Below are positions 26,819 to 34,883 of a DNA stretch of 40,632 nt, piece by piece (position 1 is the stretch's first letter; each line of letters begins with the position of its first letter). Origin of the DNA: Lachnospiraceae bacterium (lineage in GTDB: Bacteria; Bacillota; Clostridia; Lachnospirales; Lachnospiraceae); contig JAFQIE010000032.1 of the NCBI GenBank assembly GCA_017397645.1, positions 1 through 40,632 of the forward strand, given 5' to 3'. The notes under the pieces are model-generated. The model saw nothing but the letters and a program-made list of their open reading frames with translations, was not told the DNA's origin and searched no databases. Both the position numbers and the translations under genes were made by a program.

Positions 26819-28207
26819 TTATCTGATGCAGAGGCTGTCGGACATGACACACCTTCTGCTCTTTGTAAAGGATTTGGTACTGGTCAGTCCCTCACCGGTA
26901 CGGCTGGCAATGGTAAAGGTACAATAGCCTTCGCCACCGAATCCCAATGCCGCATAGGAAGGGGCATTCTTTACGAGGATGGCAGTATCAATTTCCTTTG
27001 CATACTTGGTTATGTTATCTATGTTCTTGGAGTGGATGTGTGCGGAATGGCGGTTGCCATGCTCCAACCACACTGCCTTCTCAATGGCATCGTCGATATC
27101 CTTTGCTCTGACCATACCTAAAATGGGCATCATCAACTCTTCTGAAATCAACGGATGCTCTTTCTCGCCTTCAAATACGATACAGCGGATGTTATCAGGA
27201 ACCGTTACCCCAATCATACCTAGCAAGGTCTTGGCATCACGGCCAACGCACTTTCTATTCAGTCCTTTAGGCGTGATCACAGTTTCTGCCAGTTTATCCA
27301 ATTCCTCTTTGGAAGCCAGATAACAACCCTGCTCCTCCACCATATATTTCATCAACTGGTCAGCAATGCTGTCCACTGCAACGATCTCTTTTTCTGCAAT
27401 ACAGGGCAGGTTGTTGTCAAAGGTACATCCGTTGACAATGTCTTCAGCTGCCTTTCTGATGTCTGCAGTTTCGTCTACCAGTGCAGGAGGGTTACCTGCA
27501 CCTGCACCGATGCCTCTCTTTCCGGAGGAAAGCACTGCAGTTACTACTCCGGGGCCACCGGTTGCCGCAATCAGAGGGATATCAGGATGTTTCATCATAA
27601 TATTGCTGGAATCCAATGTAGGCTTTGCCACGGTACATGCCACATTGTCAGGGCCACCGGCTTCTATGGATGCCTCGTTGATTAAGTTCAACGCGTAGAT
27701 GGAAGTCTTAATCGCCTGAGGATGGGGGTTGAATACCACAGTGTTGCCCGCCGCGATCATACCGATGGAATTACAGATAACTGTTTCGCTGGGGTTCGTA
27801 CAAGGGGTGATGGCACCGATGACACCAAAGGGACCCATCTCTATCAAGGTCAATCCTCTGTCGCCGGACCATGCGGTGGTATGTAAATCCTCCGTACCGG
27901 GGGTTTTGTCTGCCACAAGGTGATGTTTTAAAATCTTGTGTCCCACATTTCCCATACCGGTTTCATTCACGCCCATTCTGGCAAGAACTTCTGCGTTCTC
28001 ACGGGTCTTTCTACGAATGTTTGTGATAATCTGTTCTCTTTGGTCCAAGGACATTCTGCGCACAATTGCCTGAGCTTTTTTAGCTGCTGCGATGGCTTCG
28101 TTCATATCGTTGAATACGCCATGACTTTTCTGCACATCGTCTTCTATCTGCATCTTGGCCATTACTTCCTGTACAATTTCTTGAACCAGATTTTCATTTA
28201 CAAGCAC
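26819..28207 (-). CDS. pduP: CoA-acylating aldehyde dehydrogenase (PduP/EutE type)
   Basis: A 462-residue enzyme that oxidises propanal or lactaldehyde to the acyl-CoA with NAD and CoA. The N-terminal helix LVNENLVQEIVQEVMAKMQI is the encapsulation peptide, followed by a linker and a second amphipathic helix. Catalytic motifs include GPFGVIGAITPCTNPSET, VFNPHP and the nucleophile in FDNNLPCIAEKE. The start is GTG 28207, two bases after the upstream stop, with GAGGAGG seven bases before it. It is the central enzyme of the compartment; its aldehyde comes from the aldolase directly (lactaldehyde) or from a dehydratase not encoded here. Confidence 0.93.
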   Translation of the reverse strand: MLVNENLVQEIVQEVMAKMQIEDDVQKSHGVFNDMNEAIAAAKKAQAIVRRMSLDQREQIITNIRRKTRENAEVLARMGVNETGMGNVGHKILKHHLVADKTPGTEDLHTTAWSGDRGLTLIEMGPFGVIGAITPCTNPSETVICNSIGMIAAGNTVVFNPHPQAIKTSIYALNLINEASIEAGGPDNVACTVAKPTLDSSNIMMKHPDIPLIAATGGPGVVTAVLSSGKRGIGAGAGNPPALVDETADIRKAAEDIVNGCTFDNNLPCIAEKEIVAVDSIADQLMKYMVEEQGCYLASKEELDKLAETVITPKGLNRKCVGRDAKTLLGMIGVTVPDNIRCIVFEGEKEHPLISEELMMPILGMVRAKDIDDAIEKAVWLEHGNRHSAHIHSKNIDNITKYAKEIDTAILVKNAPSYAALGFGGEGYCTFTIASRTGEGLTSTKSFTKSRRCVMSDSLCIR

Positions 28208-28209
28208 GT

Positions 28210-28737
28210 CTATACCTCCTCAAATATATTTTTTCCATACTGTGCCAACTCCAAATCCTGGGCTGCACTGCCTCCGCTGACGCCGATGGCTCCGAGGATC
28301 ACTCCGTTCTTCTTCAGAAGCTCTCCGCCTCCGAAAATCACTAGTTTCCCTCCGTTGGTAAACTGTATGCCGTACAGACTTTCACCCGGCTGGCTGAGTT
28401 TACCTAACTCCTCCGTGGACATCTTGAACGCTATGGATGTATATGTCTTATTTACTGCAATATCAAAACTTCCGATATAGGCTCCGTCCATGCAGTGCAC
28501 GGCAATGGGTCTGCCTGCCGCATCCGAAACTGCCGTCACTACGGCAAGTCCCATCTGAGATGCTTTTTGTTCCACTCTTTCGATGAGTTTCACCGCTTTT
28601 CCCAGCGGCAGTGCCACCTGCACGGGCTGCGGTGTTCCGCTTGCCTGCGAATTGCTCACATTTGCCGGAATTCCTTCGCGGTTTTCCACAGTTTCAAGCA
28701 CCTGACGGACGATTCTTTCTATTTCTGTTCTTTCCAT
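28210..28737 (-). CDS. GlcG/HbpS-like protein (PduO C-terminal type) with targeting helix
   Basis: A 175-residue protein. Residues 1-20 (MERTEIERIVRQVLETVEN) match the encapsulation helices of the neighbouring enzymes. A linker rich in Ser/Gln/Pro follows, then a GlcG/HbpS (DUF336) domain of about 135 residues (LAVVTAVSDAAGRPIAVHCM, FKMSTEELG, FTNGGKLVIFGGG, GAIGVSGGSAAQD). In PduO this domain binds heme; the ATP:cobalamin adenosyltransferase part of PduO is absent here, as expected for a B12-free system. The role inside the lumen is unknown. It is tightly coupled to the aldehyde dehydrogenase gene. Confidence 0.88.
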   Translation of the reverse strand: MERTEIERIVRQVLETVENREGIPANVSNSQASGTPQPVQVALPLGKAVKLIERVEQKASQMGLAVVTAVSDAAGRPIAVHCMDGAYIGSFDIAVNKTYTSIAFKMSTEELGKLSQPGESLYGIQFTNGGKLVIFGGGELLKKNGVILGAIGVSGGSAAQDLELAQYGKNIFEEV

Positions 28738-28786
28738 GTCAGTCTCCTGAATATGTATTCAGCCGCATGGCCACAGTTGCCGGTAA

Positions 28787-29644
28787 TTACTTATTCAACT
28801 GCTCCATGACTTTCTTGGTGATATCTGCTACCAATGCATCGATAGGTTCGCCGCCCTGACCGTGCCCTCCGCAACTTCCGTCGCCGTGGCATTCGCCCTT
28901 GCCGGATTCGTGGCCACAGGTGCAGTTTCCACCGCAGGAATGGCAGCTGGGCTTGCCTGCCTGCTCATTGGGACAAAGATTTGCAGGATGACGTCCTGTC
29001 ATACCGAACTGTCTTCTGATTTCATACAAATCTTCTACCTGCTGAGGAGTGAACTCCTTGGGACCGCCAAGCATCTTGGACTGATAGAGCAACTGTGCGT
29101 AGAACTCCACGGATTCCATCTTCAAATATGCACTGAGTAGGGAATCAGAGTAGGTCAATGCACCGTGATTTTCCAAAAGCACTGCGTCAAAATGCTGTAC
29201 ATACTCAGATACTGCATCCGGAATCTCCATAGTAGAAGGTCTGCCGTACTTTGCAATGGGCACACAGCCAAGTGCGATAACCGCTTCGGGCATGATGGGC
29301 TGTGTCAAGGGAATACCTGCAATGGCAAAGCTGGTAGCATATACGGGATGTGCATGTACCACTGCTCTAACGTCCGGTCTTTCCTCGTATACTCTCATAT
29401 GCATCTTGATTTCAGAGGAAGGCTTAAATTTGCCATTTGCGGAGATCACATTTCCCTTTGCATCTACTTTACATATGTATTCAGGGGTCATAAATCCTTT
29501 GGATACACCGGTGGGTGTGCAAAGGAATTCATTATCACTTATTTTTACCGAAATATTTCCGTCATTGGCAGCCACCATGTTTCTATTGTAGATTCTCTTA
29601 CCAATGTCACAGATTTGTTTTTTAATTTCAAATTCGTTTACCAT
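28787..29644 (-). CDS. fucA: Class II fuculose/rhamnulose-1-phosphate aldolase, BMC-targeted
   Basis: A 285-residue zinc aldolase that cleaves L-fuculose- or L-rhamnulose-1-phosphate to DHAP and L-lactaldehyde. Catalytic-domain motifs are NDGNISVKI, TPTGVSKG, PSSEIKMH, the zinc site VHAHPVYAT (about 98-106) with the third His in LENHGAL (about 159). From about residue 213 there is an unusual linker of about 50 residues holding seven Cys and four His (SCHSCGG, CTCGHE, ECHGDGSCGGHG), ending in an encapsulation helix (IDALVADITKKVMEQLNK). Ordinary FucA is about 215 residues. This is the only aldolase gene in the window and must serve rhaA/rhaB. Confidence 0.92.
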   Translation of the reverse strand: MVNEFEIKKQICDIGKRIYNRNMVAANDGNISVKISDNEFLCTPTGVSKGFMTPEYICKVDAKGNVISANGKFKPSSEIKMHMRVYEERPDVRAVVHAHPVYATSFAIAGIPLTQPIMPEAVIALGCVPIAKYGRPSTMEIPDAVSEYVQHFDAVLLENHGALTYSDSLLSAYLKMESVEFYAQLLYQSKMLGGPKEFTPQQVEDLYEIRRQFGMTGRHPANLCPNEQAGKPSCHSCGGNCTCGHESGKGECHGDGSCGGHGQGGEPIDALVADITKKVMEQLNK

Positions 29645-29721
29645 CTTTACTCTCCTCTTTCCATTTATCTCATACCGTTCTTGCGGTTGTTTTGCGTTTT
29701 TGCAGTGGCTTTTTTATCCGG

Positions 29722-30192
29722 TTAAGCTTTTGTATTCCGAAGTTCTTGTATTGAAGTTTTCACTTTCGGCACCTGTAAATAATCCAAGATACCATCCACG
29801 CCCTCTCCGGTGTGGGAGTCTACATAAAAGATTGTGTCGCAACCGGCGTTTTTCAACCACAATGTGGCCATGGGGATGTTTGCCTTTGGATCATTAATCT
29901 TTGTGACGATTCCGATGACCTCACGATTCACCATGCAAGTGATGTTCGGTGGAAACAATGTATAGGGTTCCGTGGCAGAAACCAACAGACCTACCACGTC
30001 CGCCTCATATGCATATAGTGCCAAAGCGTATCCCAAATGCTTTGTCTGCGCATATTCTCCAGGAGTGTCAATCAACACATCATTATAATGAATATATTGC
30101 GTTTTATAATATTCTACTTTCTGGCCGGACAGAGCCTGCTTCAATGTAGTCTTGCCCGCTTCGCTTCGGCCAACTAAAATGAGTTTCTTCAT
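29722..30192 (-). CDS. EutP/PduV-type small GTPase-like protein
   Basis: A 156-residue Ras-like P-loop protein: Walker A GRSEAGKTT (about 8-16), DTPGEY (G3, about 43-48), and VTKIND as the G4 element (usually NKxD, here TKxN-like). EutP/PduV proteins are associated with microcompartment placement on filaments or with acetate-kinase activity in some species; the role here is open. Tight coupling to the EutS-type shell gene (30 bases) is standard for Eut/Pdu loci. Confidence 0.9.
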   Translation of the reverse strand: MKKLILVGRSEAGKTTLKQALSGQKVEYYKTQYIHYNDVLIDTPGEYAQTKHLGYALALYAYEADVVGLLVSATEPYTLFPPNITCMVNREVIGIVTKINDPKANIPMATLWLKNAGCDTIFYVDSHTGEGVDGILDYLQVPKVKTSIQELRNTKA

Positions 30193-30222
30193 AATATATG
30201 TACCCGACGATTATGCACCGCG

Positions 30223-30591
30223 TTAGGTCCTGGTCATGGGGCAAACGGTATATTTCAGTTCTTCCTGCACATAATCCAAAATAGCCTGCTCGGAAGCTTC
30301 CACCTCGGACACCGTACCAGTGATAATCAGGGAACCACTGAATCTGTCCACAAAGCCTAAATCTATGGAAGCCGACTTCATCGCCACGTCCGCCATAATA
30401 ATGGCTGTCTCTGCAGGGGAAACGGTCATGATCCCAATCGCTGCCCTAGCGTAATCTATCGCCGGATTCAGTCCTAACTTCTCGTAGAGAATGGGCTCCG
30501 GACTCGCTATAATGTGGGCCAGGGTAATCTGTTTACCGGGCACCAACTCTTGTACAATTCTTGCTTTATTTTTGTCGTCGAGCCAGTCCAT
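30223..30591 (-). CDS. Permuted BMC-H shell protein (EutS/PduU type)
   Basis: A 122-residue circularly permuted BMC-domain protein: KQITLAHIIASP near the N-terminus forms the characteristic beta-barrel cap on the hexamer face, followed by IGIMTVSPAETAIIMAD and SGSLIITGTVSEVEAS. The start is ATG 30591 with GGAGG five bases before it; the in-frame TTG at 30603 overlaps this site. It is the first gene after the strong promoter and so leads the compartment operon. In PduU the capped face binds an encapsulation-like helix. Confidence 0.92.
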   Translation of the reverse strand: MDWLDDKNKARIVQELVPGKQITLAHIIASPEPILYEKLGLNPAIDYARAAIGIMTVSPAETAIIMADVAMKSASIDLGFVDRFSGSLIITGTVSEVEASEQAILDYVQEELKYTVCPMTRT

Positions 30592-30640
30592 TACTTCCTC
30601 CAAACTTGAATTTAAGCCCTTTTTTGCATTCTTGTCTATT

Positions 30641-30669: not shown

Positions 30670-30906
30670 TCGGATATATGCGTTTTTTTGTGGATTTGTT
30701 TTGATTCTTTTTGATTTTATATTTGTATTGTATTTGGTTTTATGTTGATTTTTTTGCTCAAATTTATCCCTTTTTCATTGCATTCAGACAAGTGGTTGTG
30801 GTAAAATGTATTCAAGTATTGCCACGCGCACTAGATAATGTGGTTGGCAATTCCCACAAAACACAACAGCGGATTGTGGAATTCCACAGGAAGGAACAAC
30901 ACCCAT

Positions 30907-31617
30907 ATGATGCCATCTTCCACTCCCCCAATTTCATATTTGAGCGAAGACTGGCATGTACACAGCATTGCCAGCGGGCACGGCACTTTAGATAGCATCA
31001 CCGACATTGCCAGAGAGGCCGCAAAGCGCGGTATGAAGCTGATTGGTATCAGCGATCACGGTCCCGCCACCTTGGGTGGCACCGCACTCTCCTATTTCAG
31101 AAGCCTGCCCCTGTGCGAGCCCAGGCGCTTTGGCGTAGAACTGCGCTATGGTGCAGAAGCTAATATCTTGGATGGCAATGGTTCACTGGATATTCCTGAC
31201 GAGATTTTAGAGAAGTTGGATTATTGTATTGTGAGTATGCATCGCCCTATTTATAAAGGAAGTGAAAGCACAGTAAACACCCACGCCTACATTCAAGCCA
31301 TGTCCCACCCCAAGGTGAAGATTCTTGGGCACTGCGATGACGGACGGTTCTCCGTGGATTATGATGAATTGGTAAGGGCAGCCACGGCCATGGGCGTAAC
31401 TCCGGAATTAAATAATGTTTCCCTTTCTCCCGACAGTTACAGATTAAACTGCCGCGCTAACGCCACCCGCTTATTGGAAGCCTGCGCAAAATACAATTGC
31501 CCCATCCTGCTGTCCAGTGATAGCCACGGCAGAAAACATATTGGAGAAGTAGCATATGCAATGGAATTGGTTAAGGAAACCGGATTTCCCCTGACATTAA
31601 TAAAGAACCTCCCGTGA
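30907..31617 (+). CDS. PHP-domain phosphoesterase (YcdX/histidinol-phosphatase-like)
   Basis: A 236-residue protein with the PHP metal-binding motifs in order: DWHVHSIASGHGT (two His), ISDHGPA, EANIL, the His in VSMHRPIY, GHCDDGRF and SSDSHGRK near the end. This is the YcdX-type order expected for a trinuclear metal phosphoesterase. The substrate is unknown. I start at ATG 30907, which has AGGAAGGA about 12 bases ahead; an in-frame ATG at 30838 has no ribosome site. It is divergent from the compartment operon and followed by a hairpin terminator at its stop codon. Confidence 0.87.
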   Translation: MMPSSTPPISYLSEDWHVHSIASGHGTLDSITDIAREAAKRGMKLIGISDHGPATLGGTALSYFRSLPLCEPRRFGVELRYGAEANILDGNGSLDIPDEILEKLDYCIVSMHRPIYKGSESTVNTHAYIQAMSHPKVKILGHCDDGRFSVDYDELVRAATAMGVTPELNNVSLSPDSYRLNCRANATRLLEACAKYNCPILLSSDSHGRKHIGEVAYAMELVKETGFPLTLIKNLP

Positions 31618-31630
31618 TGGGAGGTTCTTT
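31602..31630. terminator. Hairpin at the end of the PHP gene
   Basis: AAAGAACCTCCC pairs perfectly with GGGAGGTTCTTT around a GTGA(T) loop that contains the TGA stop codon of the PHP gene. The T run after it is short, so it may act as a weak or bidirectional terminator. Confidence 0.75.
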
Positions 31631-31650
31631 ACTAGTTTCTGTTGGAGTTT

Positions 31651-31771
31651 TTTCGCGTTTTATTGGAATTCCTGCGTTTTGAGGGGAGTTTTCTGCATTT
31701 TGATGGGAATTTTCTGCACTTTGATGGAAGTTTTCTGCACTTTGGTGGGAGTTTTCTGCTTTCCCTTGGGA
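31651..31771. repeat. 21-bp tandem repeat
   Basis: Five to six degenerate 21-bp units of the form GGAGTTTTCTGCACTTTGATG; the core CTGC recurs exactly 21 bases apart at 31672, 31693, 31714, 31735 and 31756. It immediately precedes the 53-bp-period array. On the minus strand it would read as (AENSHQS)n within an ORF that has no ribosome site, so I treat it as non-coding. Confidence 0.85.
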
Positions 31772-31784
31772 ATATTCGTTGCTT

Positions 31785-32032
31785 TGCGGTTGAGTTGTTG
31801 CTATTTTTGATTTCAACCGCATAAAAGTCATGTCCCTTGCGGTGGAACCGTTCATTATCCCATTTTCAACCGTACATTCTGACACTTATGTGCGGTTATC
31901 TTCCTAACTTTTCAAAACACAACCGTAATACTCGCCATATGTTGCGGTTCAAATAATGAATTGTGATTTTATAACCGTATGGAATACAAGTTTTGTGCGG
32001 TTATTTTATCAACTTTTCCAATCATAACCGCA
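31785..32032 (+). repeat. Regular array of ten inverted half-sites, period 53 bp
   Basis: Five copies of TGCGGTT (starts 31785, 31838 as TGCGGTG, 31891, 31943, 31996) alternate with five of AACCGCA/AACCGTA (starts 31815, 31868, 31921, 31973, 32026). Distances between starts are 30, 23, 30, 23, 30, 22, 30, 23 and 30 bases, that is 23-base and 16-base spacers in strict alternation. The spacer sequences are all different. The variant AACCGTA still pairs with TGCGGTT through a G-U pair if the plus strand is RNA, but gives an A-C mismatch on the other strand. One additional AACCGTT lies at 31846. No coding function fits a 53-base period. Confidence 0.9.
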
Positions 32033-32113
32033 TTCTGCTCCAAACAGCAATCTCATACCAACTTTCATCTCCACTCAAACAATAAACTCGCGTCCCTTCC
32101 TCTATTCATACAC

Positions 32114-32395
32114 ATGTCTTTGGATAATCTCATTCTGGAACTGCTCCGACAAAGACACAAACTTGGCAGAGAATCCTGTGACACGGACAATCAGGTCCTG
32201 GAAACCTTCCGCCGCTACACCGGTAAAAGCATTCATAATTACCTGACCCAACGGCGATTAGAACATGCCAGACGCCTGCTACAGAATGGAGTTTCCGTCA
32301 CGGAAGCCTGCTACCAGAGCGGATTCTCGGACTGCTCCGGGTTTATCACGCTATTCAAAAAACATTTTGGTATAACACCGGGGAAATATCAATAA
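32114..32395 (+). pseudogene. AraC-type regulator fragment (DNA-binding half)
   Basis: The frame encodes the second helix-turn-helix of an AraC/XylS domain: YTGKSIHNYLTQRRLEHARR, LLQNGVSVTEACYQSGFSD and FITLFKKHFGITPGKYQ. The first helix-turn-helix is degraded (ESCDTDNQVLETFRR in place of the usual LSRLFKK context), and no ligand-binding half exists upstream. ATG 32114 lacks a ribosome site; the frame can be read open from 31979 through the repeat array. It is probably a remnant of a larger gene, perhaps once a rhamnose-type activator, although a functional short regulator cannot be excluded. It ends in a shared terminator at 32394-32426. Confidence 0.65.
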
Positions 32396-32429: not shown

Positions 32430-34883
32430 TTATATCTTACTCTCCGCATCTTCCACGGATTCATACCCGTAAAGTCTTGCGGTATTGTTCATAATCTCGT
32501 ATGCCAGATTGCGTCCTTCCTGGAGTAAGCCCACGATGAATCTGCCATACAGCATCAAGGTTTCCTCGGAATAGGTGCTCATCTCCCCCCGCAGATAGGT
32601 TTCGTAGGAGGTATCGTATGGGGTATCGTCCTTGGTATGGATAGTTCTTGCATGAATTGCCATCTTGGGATATTGCGCCGCAAAAGCTTCCATCCACTGT
32701 ACCTGAATCTTGATGATTTCCTCTTGAATTTGAATTCTCTCAGGGCTACGCACGGGCAGGGAATCCTGAAACTGTGTAAAACGCTCCGGTGCAGTGCTCT
32801 CCATCATGCGGGCATACTTTTCCGTAATCAGATTCCAGCCTCTCTCTTTTCCCTCCTGCAAATCCTTGTAGAAACTCTCCAAAAGTTCTTTGGGCCATGC
32901 CTGATACTGGCTCTTTCTCATAATTTGGAAAGTACTCCAATTATCCTGACAGGAAGCTCTTCCACCTTCGTTTTCTACTTTATCAAAGAGTTCCCACTCC
33001 AATGCTACAATTTTGTCTACCATGCTCTCTATCTTATCCATAATCTGCGAAATATACCCTTCCAAAAACAGGTCCTGTCCTTCCACCAATTGTTGTCTCT
33101 TCATTTCTTCTAGAAGCACGGCGGCCACTTGTTCAAAACTTGCCACCATCGCATCTTTCATATGCACCTTTGCGGAATCATAAGTCACGCCCAGCCATGC
33201 CTCTTTTTGTAAAGGCAGTTCCACTACACGCTCCAATATAGGAAGAAGTTTATCGCCCAAAGGCAATGCCTCCAATGCTTTTCTTTTCCACTTATAGTAG
33301 GGAGCATAAGTGCGGCTCAATAAAAACGCCAGGTTCATGGCTGCTTCCACCGCCTTTGCAATGCACAGGGACGCCGTCACATAATCCTCACGAGCCATCA
33401 TTCTGGGATAATTGCTCTGAGCATACTGGGAAAACTCGTGCAGTTCTGTGGCCAGTTTCTCCCGCCAAACTTGGTCAGGATAATATCCTTGCAACACATT
33501 TCGAATCCCTGTAAAGACGCCCAAATCATCGCGGAACACTGCGCCGTTTACGGCTGATGCCAGTTGCATTTCCTGCACCCGTTCACCCTTCACACCGGGC
33601 TGCTCAAACACTGCCTTTCGTAGTGCTTCTACAAAGGCTTCCTTAGATAAATCTACACTCTCAAAATCAATTTGGGTGCCTAACAATCCATTGTAAAAAT
33701 CATTGCAGGTGAACACGCCCCTACGGTTGGCTATCAAGCGGTCATTCTTTCCAATCTGATAGACCGATTCTATTAACTCTTCATAAGCCTTCTGTAAATC
33801 TGCACCGATTCTCTTCCAATCCTCCGCCATCAGCCACATGCAAAATCCGATGCCGTAATCATGATCCGTGGAGATAGCGTCATCATACCCATAGCAATCC
33901 GACCCCTCGCCCACCATACCCACGGCAATACGGCTCTCATACTCCGGAAACTTCTCTGCAATCATAGGGCGACCATAGGTCTCATAAAAGGCACGACACC
34001 TATCTATATTCCTGACGAACTCCCGCACCCCAGCACCTTCTGCCACATCGGTTTTGCAGGATGCTACATTATCTGTGCTCTTTTCTGCTTTCTTTTTTGC
34101 AAACGCACATTTTTCCTGTACACGCTTGTAATTGTCATTGATGCCGGTGTGCTTTTCCACTTCCAGCAATCCTTTTTCATAATAAGAAGACGCCCGTACA
34201 TAGTCTTCCTTCGCCATCATCAAATCGCCCATAGCTACCAGCGCGGCACCGTAATGAAAATCCCTGCCGCCATCGTTTTCATAGATTTGTAATGCTTCCT
34301 TTAAATACGCTTCTGCTTCTTCGTAAGATTCCTGTGTAGCGAGCACGATAAGAGATGCCGCCAAGTTTGCCATAGAAGTAGCCTTAGGTATCACTGCATC
34401 TTCATACAATGCCACGATGGCAAGTGCTTTCCTCAGCATCTCCACAGCATTTTTTTGATTTCCCATCTCCTGATACAACAAACTCCAGTTGTTATACAGG
34501 CTGGCATAACGGAAATCTCCCGGTTCTAAATGTTTTTGATAGTTTTCTTCCACCTGTTCAAAGAAGGCAAAGGCCTGCTCATGCAGGTCGAAGGCGCGAT
34601 AAGCGTTTGCAATGTTCAATAGGGAAGTGGCGTGTTCCACCCTTCCTTCCAGTTCCATCTCTTCCAAAAGAGACAACAACTGCGCGCAATAATCAAGCCC
34701 CTTCTCCCTCTGGGTAGTGTCTCTACAGAATCCTATCATTTCATTGAGGAGCGTAAACAGTACCCCCAACTCGCCCTGTTCACGGGCCTGTGTAATCTGC
34801 CCTGCCAAGTATTCTTCTATTTCTTCCAGCGTATTTTTGCCAAACATTTCATCATAGGTTTGCAAAATATCTGCAATATTCAT
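32430..34883 (-). CDS. TPR - DUF4037 - DUF4125 fusion protein
   Basis: An 817-residue cytoplasmic protein in three parts. Residues about 30-270 are tetratricopeptide-like repeats (ATSLLNIANAYRAFDLHEQA, ASLYNNWSLLYQEMGNQKNA). Residues about 290-600 match DUF4037, with a nucleotidyltransferase-type signature GEGSDCYGYDDAISTDHDYG; the GS and the DxD-like acidic residues are present. Residues about 620-810 match DUF4125 (SCQDNWSTFQIMRKSQYQAW, HARTIHTKDDTPYDTSYETYL). DUF4037 proteins in Firmicutes are usually about 300 residues. The GSx...DxD pattern resembles aminoglycoside-type or tRNA-type nucleotidyltransferases, but the substrate is unknown. The gene has its own GGGAGG site and ends in a terminator; nothing links it to rhamnose use except proximity. 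Confidence 0.85.
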   Translation of the reverse strand: MNIADILQTYDEMFGKNTLEEIEEYLAGQITQAREQGELGVLFTLLNEMIGFCRDTTQREKGLDYCAQLLSLLEEMELEGRVEHATSLLNIANAYRAFDLHEQAFAFFEQVEENYQKHLEPGDFRYASLYNNWSLLYQEMGNQKNAVEMLRKALAIVALYEDAVIPKATSMANLAASLIVLATQESYEEAEAYLKEALQIYENDGGRDFHYGAALVAMGDLMMAKEDYVRASSYYEKGLLEVEKHTGINDNYKRVQEKCAFAKKKAEKSTDNVASCKTDVAEGAGVREFVRNIDRCRAFYETYGRPMIAEKFPEYESRIAVGMVGEGSDCYGYDDAISTDHDYGIGFCMWLMAEDWKRIGADLQKAYEELIESVYQIGKNDRLIANRRGVFTCNDFYNGLLGTQIDFESVDLSKEAFVEALRKAVFEQPGVKGERVQEMQLASAVNGAVFRDDLGVFTGIRNVLQGYYPDQVWREKLATELHEFSQYAQSNYPRMMAREDYVTASLCIAKAVEAAMNLAFLLSRTYAPYYKWKRKALEALPLGDKLLPILERVVELPLQKEAWLGVTYDSAKVHMKDAMVASFEQVAAVLLEEMKRQQLVEGQDLFLEGYISQIMDKIESMVDKIVALEWELFDKVENEGGRASCQDNWSTFQIMRKSQYQAWPKELLESFYKDLQEGKERGWNLITEKYARMMESTAPERFTQFQDSLPVRSPERIQIQEEIIKIQVQWMEAFAAQYPKMAIHARTIHTKDDTPYDTSYETYLRGEMSTYSEETLMLYGRFIVGLLQEGRNLAYEIMNNTARLYGYESVEDAESKI

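Follow-up and report, generated by a model that had tools for sequence, protein, structure and literature searches.

What keeps ten 7-bp half-sites in strict alternation and at nearly constant spacing in the genome of a Lachnospiraceae bacterium, and what reads them? The window analysed here, a stretch of 40,632 nucleotides, is the whole of one contig (C30) of a 1.81-Mb assembly that is 74% complete (genome label G000), and a scan for pattern and spacing places the array at 31785..32032, as five units with left-site steps of 53, 53, 52 and 53 bp. The left, plus-strand half-sites are TGCGGTT at 31785..31791 (L1), TGCGGTG at 31838..31844 (L2), and TGCGGTT at 31891..31897 (L3), 31943..31949 (L4) and 31996..32002 (L5), and the right half-sites, inverted and thus on the minus strand, are AACCGCA at 31815..31821 (R1) and 32026..32032 (R5) and AACCGTA at 31868..31874 (R2), 31921..31927 (R3) and 31973..31979 (R4). 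A preliminary description had reported this alternation with steps of 30/23/30/23/30/22/30/23/30 and a different sequence in every spacer; both hold (all nine inner spacers are distinct), as do the half-site identities that it gave, except for the left site at 31838, which is TGCGGTG and not TGCGGTT. Its dismissal of chance is also borne out: the unit pattern TGCGGTTN{22,24}AACCGYA has 6 matches in the window and 0 in 100 dinucleotide shuffles, and the chain score of the array is 133 against 30 for the best of 40 shuffled loci.

The array lies between a PHP-domain gene (30838-31617, plus strand; Pfam) and an AraC-type HTH reading frame (31979-32395, plus strand; Pfam) that starts on the final base of half-site R4. 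The Pfam domain of this overlapping frame starts only at residue 72; a 104-aa frame on the minus strand that also overlaps the array (31571-31885) has no Pfam match. The earlier view of the array as non-coding is supported. Directly left of the array (31648-31765), about five copies of a 21-bp direct tandem repeat, TTTGATGGGAGTTTTCTGCAC, were noticed, the unit of which is two helical turns long and has no second copy in the same genome by DNA search (E <= 1e-3). Farther out, the window encodes a DUF4125/DUF4037/TPR protein (32430-34883) and, at 26819-30603, frames that resemble aldehyde dehydrogenase and BMC shell proteins, with one BMC domain confirmed by Pfam, which we take to be a microcompartment-type locus. 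The 461-bp array region has no DNA match among 40 other genomes, and DNA similarity searches of plasmids with the array region gave no match.

The window array is one of a family, and a genome search for the repeated pattern, suggested in the preliminary description, finds more arrays both in the same genome and in others. The half-array pattern ACCGYA-N15..17-TRCGGT matches 18 distinct sites in the own genome (reversed control, 0), and a spacing-aware scan of the regions around pattern matches in this 74% complete assembly yields ten arrays of at least six half-sites with 30/23 steps, the window array included. An eleventh site (L044, contig C11) has two half-sites only and was counted as chance; the chain at L046, of 20 half-sites, runs on over weak sites, and about half of it is trusted. 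The half-site consensus is T-R-C-G-G-T-T followed by an A/T-rich stretch toward the 23-base side, that is, a conserved core of 7 bp plus weak A/T-rich positions, and some own-genome sites have a flipped or altered core (TACCGCT, AGCGGTA, TACAGTT) and are still in register.

Among GTDB representatives, a pattern of four half-sites matches at least 116 stretches, and an array of at least six half-sites is present in 107 of the 116 matches listed (75 of the 80 that entered the array statistics, and 32 of the other 36, which were examined for array length). Three loci with titles of Bacteroidales or Bacteroidaceae (L071, L101, L156) have 4-5 half-sites only, possibly by chance. Most of the remaining listed loci bear titles of Lachnospiraceae or of named genera, with five loci from one 'uncultured Firmicutes' assembly; we assume that Blautia, Eisenbergiella, Mediterraneibacter, Drancourtella, Roseburia and others belong to Lachnospiraceae. 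Among the array-bearing strains are the cultured commensals Blautia sp. An81 (L092) and Drancourtella massiliensis An770 (L061, L108 and L123). No IMG/VR viral contig matches the four-half-site pattern. Across 106 arrays (the own ten and those of the 80 listed loci), the left-to-right step is 30 in 426 of 509 cases and the right-to-left step is 22 or 23 in 431 of 448. A crude ORF call has 29 of the 92 arrays with five or more half-sites overlapping, at least partly, an open frame that spans roughly 100 or more codons.

One own-genome array (L027) carries the window motif and lies directly 5' of a gene, here called the partner gene, a 263-aa frame on contig C43 (32066-32848, plus strand) that opens 35 bp after the array; the gene on the other side is presumably that of a ribosomal protein, rpsI. 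Eight other fetched loci hold arrays with flanks that match the flanks here, and each of the eight has the partner gene; gene and same-motif array stand side by side in ten named loci (L060 and L135 included). The gap after rpsI (L027:6600-7064; also in L111, L069, L126 and L116) is a recurrent home of gene and array across several assemblies. The protein has no usable Pfam or NCBIfam family match, and a PDB sequence search gave no useful match. Pfam matches at 0.0001-0.05 (e.g. Rota_NSP4) occur in 1-2 of 39 members each and were taken as chance. The last ~125 residues of the protein are similar to PADLOC PDC-S68 (E 5e-30), with a weak match to a HEAT/PD-DEXK model as well, and PHROGs yields weak endonuclease and resolvase matches over the C-terminal part (E 0.003-0.01).

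The family carries a nuclease-like signature. All 39 members compared, whose identity goes down to 28%, share R-S-K-x-E, Y-E, P-D-F and E-H-x-G without change, as they do residues E159, D190 and E205. Where the textbook signature has the lysine of E-x-K, the sequence reads E-H-x, and a lysine stands 16-17 residues after E205 in all 17 C-terminal domains compared (eight of them from viral contigs) and in at least 90% of the 39 members. From this conservation pattern, we read these residues as a putative active site of PD-(D/E)XK type in which the lysine is displaced. The N-terminal part is more variable than the C-terminal domain and is perhaps the DNA reader. In the genus, 50 of 138 genomes have family matches at E <= 1e-8, a few of which consist of the common C-terminal domain alone, within large proteins. 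In the order, matches at E <= 1e-25 are present in 44 of 295 genomes, from two bacterial families. The distribution is patchy and multi-copy, with up to at least eight matches per genome in the order survey. Among viral contigs, 8 loci share the C-terminal domain only, and 7 plasmid records have partial matches to the partner protein. There are three matches in phage records; one of these records, a 4.2-kb faecal contig of unverified status, encodes a full-length relative, and no array was found in the 900 bp 5' of it.

Arrays lie 5' of family genes far beyond the partner gene itself. Alternating inverted arrays with periods of 40-100 bp were sought by a motif-free detector in 900 bp on either side of family genes; the detector had been relaxed after an over-strict first version, and its score cut-off of 4 was set after the genus set results and then applied unchanged to the second, order set. 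Twenty loci were hand-picked, not drawn at random, from the family matches of the 138-genome survey. Of the protein-selected genes, 51 of 73 have such an array 5' and 6 of 76 have one 3' (genus set, 34 of 47 vs 3 of 49; order set, later, 17 of 26 vs 3 of 27), and the detector calls no 5' array for 22 of the 73. Within the order set, a 5' array is found for 16 of 21 genes in the own bacterial family and for 1 of 5 in the second. Loci selected by array, counted apart, give 10 of 10 for 5' and 2 of 9 for 3'. Elsewhere, 518 control tiles gave 4 matches, three on two real own-genome arrays of other motifs and one like a coding repeat. When any periodicity above shuffles is counted and array-selected loci are included, an alternating or periodic stretch lies 5' in 65 of 81 genes, and a periodic stretch lies 3' in 16 of 78. 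Since related arrays share descent, array and gene counts are not fully independent.

The motifs beside family genes are diverse (TTACGTT, TATGAC, CCGACT, CCCATC, GGCGGTA, ATGAAT, GCAAGC, GCATCG, CGCTGT, CGGGGC). The own genome also holds two further array families. One, TTTAGG/CCTAAT with a period of 61 (L195:4427-4676 and L024:8-230), lies 3' of a second family gene on contig C13 and recurs on contig C18 at ~46.0 kb. The other, TTACCT/AGGTAA with a period of 62, is on contig C43 (L277:4530-4756), follows what we take to be a ribosomal-protein operon, and has no nuclease-like family gene within its 6-kb stretch.

The periods of these arrays are set by the DNA helix. The preliminary description had noted that 53 bp is about five helical turns and would suit an array of protein, a point that the relatives strengthen: 5' arrays of protein-selected genes have 53 measured periods, which cluster at 51-54 bp (29), 61-65 bp (15), 73-75 bp (6) and 82-84 bp (3), so that 53 of 53 are near five, six, seven or eight turns and none lies between. 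The 24 periods longer than 57 bp, taken alone, are best fitted by a modulus of 10.59 bp, and none of 20000 random sets is as well phased. These quantised periods argue that binding to double-stranded DNA explains the steps best. Separately, one family gene (L190:2268-2700) has 5' of it a stretch of 42-bp periodicity, or four turns, which the detector does not call as alternating.

The preliminary description had favoured a reading as RNA, namely a plus-strand transcript with five hairpins or with two alternative hairpin sets. The T variants in the window do keep G-U pairs, the plus strand folds better than its shuffles (z -5.7; minus strand, z -2.8), and in other genomes pairing across the 16-base spacer is marginally above shuffles (0.914 vs 0.909, with 13 of 1000 as good), but good folding of the plus strand is forced by inverted repeats and the stems do not covary in the own genome across either spacer, where 217 (23-base) and 780 (16-base) of 1000 shuffles are at least as good as the real pairing. 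Complementarity between half-sites that would pair does not exceed that between partners shuffled within the array, and adjacent half-sites resemble one another no more than non-adjacent ones do. The G-U asymmetry seen in the window fails in other own-genome arrays, where a left A faces a right C (e.g. L026), and the flipped cores TACCGCT and AGCGGTA keep the spacing and break the pairing. No Rfam family matches near the array at gathering score, and a lax threshold gives two matches only, at a chance-like E of 0.4. With periods quantised by the DNA helix as well, we regard hairpins in RNA as very unlikely to be what the array encodes.

Each branch of the protein family has its own site sequence, and the dispersed arrays switch motif with the protein. 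Across 62 arrays (array-selected ones included), a similar motif is shared by 94% of the 18 pairs whose proteins are more than 75% identical, by 52% of the 42 pairs at 60-75%, by 24% of the 121 pairs at 50-60%, and by 0-1% of the 1710 pairs below 50% (Mantel p 0.0005). As predictors of the motif, N-terminal and C-terminal identity perform about alike (partial r 0.155 and 0.105), so neither half is singled out as the motif reader.

Genome-wide counts of dispersed arrays follow the same rule for three motifs tested, with 0-7 matches of the reversed patterns that served as controls. Arrays of AGTCGG number 6, 12 and 19 in G061, G064 and G065 (4, 8 and 17 of them away from the gene), 3 in G055 and 0-2 in 22 others, with zero in 19 of 26 genomes. 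Arrays of GCATCG, a motif read from G058, number 31 in G004, 8 in G058, 5 in G125 and 0-3 in 23 others, and in G004 one lies directly 5' of a family gene that played no part in the choice of motif. The third motif, AACGTA, gives 13 arrays in G056, 10 in G107, 0-4 in 20 others and 0 in the own genome; the proteins of G056 and G107 are the closest to the own-genome partner, that of G056 being 66% identical, and the dispersed arrays of G056 carry TTACGTT, a pattern with no match in the own genome. Half-array counts of the own motif are highest in G081 (22), G000 (18) and G111 (10), and the proteins of G081 and G111 are 56 and 58% identical to the own partner. Three genomes of the 138-genome survey (G093, G131 and G128) have 7-8 own-motif half-array matches (reversed control, 2-3) and no family match.

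Another chromosomal protein, such as a nucleoid organiser or a regulator, might bind the arrays, with the nuclease-like genes merely adjoining them. The neighbours of the dispersed arrays are indeed varied (among the 62 arrays for which both flanking genes were seen, the two genes converge in 22 cases, point the same way in 34 and diverge in 6), which argues that the arrays are not operators of one pathway. However, motif changes track the family protein, also genome-wide, and the arrays stand 5' and seldom 3' of its gene, so that we hold this reading to be improbable.

How the arrays spread differs between genomes. In some, arrays are recent copies of each other, as array pairs that share sequence number 92 of 136, 28 of 36 and 23 of 28 in three genomes and 0-3 in five further ones, and a dispersed element of ~560 nt with terminal inverted repeats, GTTACTTTTCAYGGGGCRGG, encloses a 12-half-site array (L089, L104, L109, L113, L050) in two Eisenbergiella assemblies and one uncultured Lachnospiraceae. 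Because arrays sit inside this element, another transposase may spread them in Eisenbergiella-type genomes, and the arrays could be repeats inside a non-autonomous transposon (MITE) of no use to the host. In the own genome, though, none of the 45 array pairs shares a 50-bp alignment and a comparison that includes the flanks finds one match only, of 38 bp between two arrays, yet half-sites and spacing are alike. Half-sites and spacing that persist where sequence is no longer shared are unlike decaying copies, and the own-genome half-sites appear to have been kept long after the spacers diverged. Across species, seven comparisons of gene-adjacent arrays give identities of 0.90-1.00 for half-sites and 0.45-0.79 for spacers, with a motif-based mask that somewhat favours half-site identity. 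On the evidence of the own genome, we consider a mere MITE cargo an unlikely account of the arrays.

Taken with the absence of covariation in the own genome, the 5' linkage, the joint change of motif and protein and the helical phasing indicate, as judged from sequence comparison, that the family protein most likely binds double-stranded DNA at the arrays, which would offer it phased sites. We think it probable, with good confidence, that the window array and the other dispersed copies are helically phased half-site platforms for the ~263-aa protein. Copies of the protein would bind pairs of inverted half-sites, all facing one side of the DNA, and from an array 5' of its gene the protein would probably regulate its own expression. 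The dispersed intergenic arrays, that of the window among them, would stand to the protein as REPINs stand to RAYTs, as a set of copies preserved for it to bind, and the nuclease-like domain may nick or cut at arrays, with repair multiplying and spreading the units. The multi-copy, patchy and fast-changing pattern of the family would fit a putative role in defence.

Comparison with known systems bears out the earlier statement that no named element has this layout: none was found, and among the matches listed, open-licence PMC papers hold no description of such arrays. That arrays of one build adjoin genes of a nuclease-like family, each branch with a site sequence of its own, suggests a system of protein and repeats in gut Clostridia that has not been described before. 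CRISPR shares the regular repeat-spacer layout and differs in that the arrays here have alternating inverted 7-bp half-sites and no long direct repeat, so that its rejection in the preliminary description stands as far as layout goes. PADLOC PDC-S68, a set of candidate defence proteins, shares the C-terminal PD-(D/E)XK-like domain; its models have ~1200 residues, whereas the partner matches with its last ~125 only, and we know of no array with PDC-S68.

An array of guide RNAs, of TIGR or CRISPR type and with the spacers as guides, would account for alternating short repeats with differing spacers and for the nuclease-like gene that adjoins related arrays. TIGR-Tas loci, as described in excerpts of PMC12045711, likewise have repeats and spacers beside a protein gene, with repeats that vary between loci, as they do here. 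The same excerpts describe a Nop-domain protein, edge and loop repeats or stem-loops, and spacers of up to 12 nt, whereas the present half-sites are inverted, with spacers of 15-16 and 23, they do not covary in the own genome, and their spacing is set by the DNA helix. No Nop-domain match was found in any of ten array-bearing genomes (10 of 10 without), so the arrays are not TIGR-Tas. Spacers are, moreover, nearly identical inside several gene-adjacent arrays, and the viral contigs lack the four-site pattern; guide RNAs are accordingly a scarcely credible explanation.

The closest analogue, by our rating, is REPIN-RAYT. In REP/BIME-RAYT systems, according to excerpts of PMC2817692 and PMC8049555, regularly spaced alternating repeats have a cognate gene beside them, protein and repeat co-evolve, and repeat abundance is tied to the protein. 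The present arrays resemble them in regular spacing and alternating orientation, in the cognate protein gene beside arrays, in the joint change of protein and motif, and in an abundance that follows the cognate protein, with G093, G131 and G128 as exceptions for the own motif. They differ in the protein, which is PD-(D/E)XK-like where RAYT is a Y1 (HUH) transposase, in half-sites of 6-7 bp at whole helical turns in place of hairpin-forming REPs, the unit of which is a 20-40-bp palindrome (PMC3733652, in part), and in a position mostly 5' of the gene where REPs lie on both sides. Pfam finds no Y1 match among the 39 array-linked proteins scanned, and no Y1_Tnp match in 4 of 10 array-bearing genomes (G056, G064, G065 and G004, 77-92% complete); in the own genome the one match is a fragment that lies where contig C23 ends, ~65 kb away from that contig's array. 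As the array-linked protein is without Y1 and 4 of the 10 array genomes are without a Y1 match, we do not count arrays and protein as a member of REPIN-RAYT, although they would work in a like manner.

More tentatively, and at somewhat less than even chance, this may be a two-part system common in Lachnospiraceae, made of diversifying nuclease-like proteins, each with its own array, as a convergent counterpart of REPIN-RAYT. Such a system would combine fast-diversifying proteins, up to eight or more per genome and each with a phased array beside its gene, with dispersed chromosomal copies of the arrays, seen where tested; the protein would propagate the arrays and be held by them. In a bolder form, chromosomal arrays would restrain the nuclease, and DNA or cells without arrays would be cut. 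Motifs often differ already at 50-65% protein identity, a fast change of DNA specificity with which the arrays co-change, so that the role of repeat-protein pairs in the host is directly testable, and the family offers many natural pairs of protein and likely DNA target for working out rules of recognition. If this view is right, abundant gut species would hold a second population of intragenomic repeats tied to a cognate protein, invented independently of REPINs and RAYTs.
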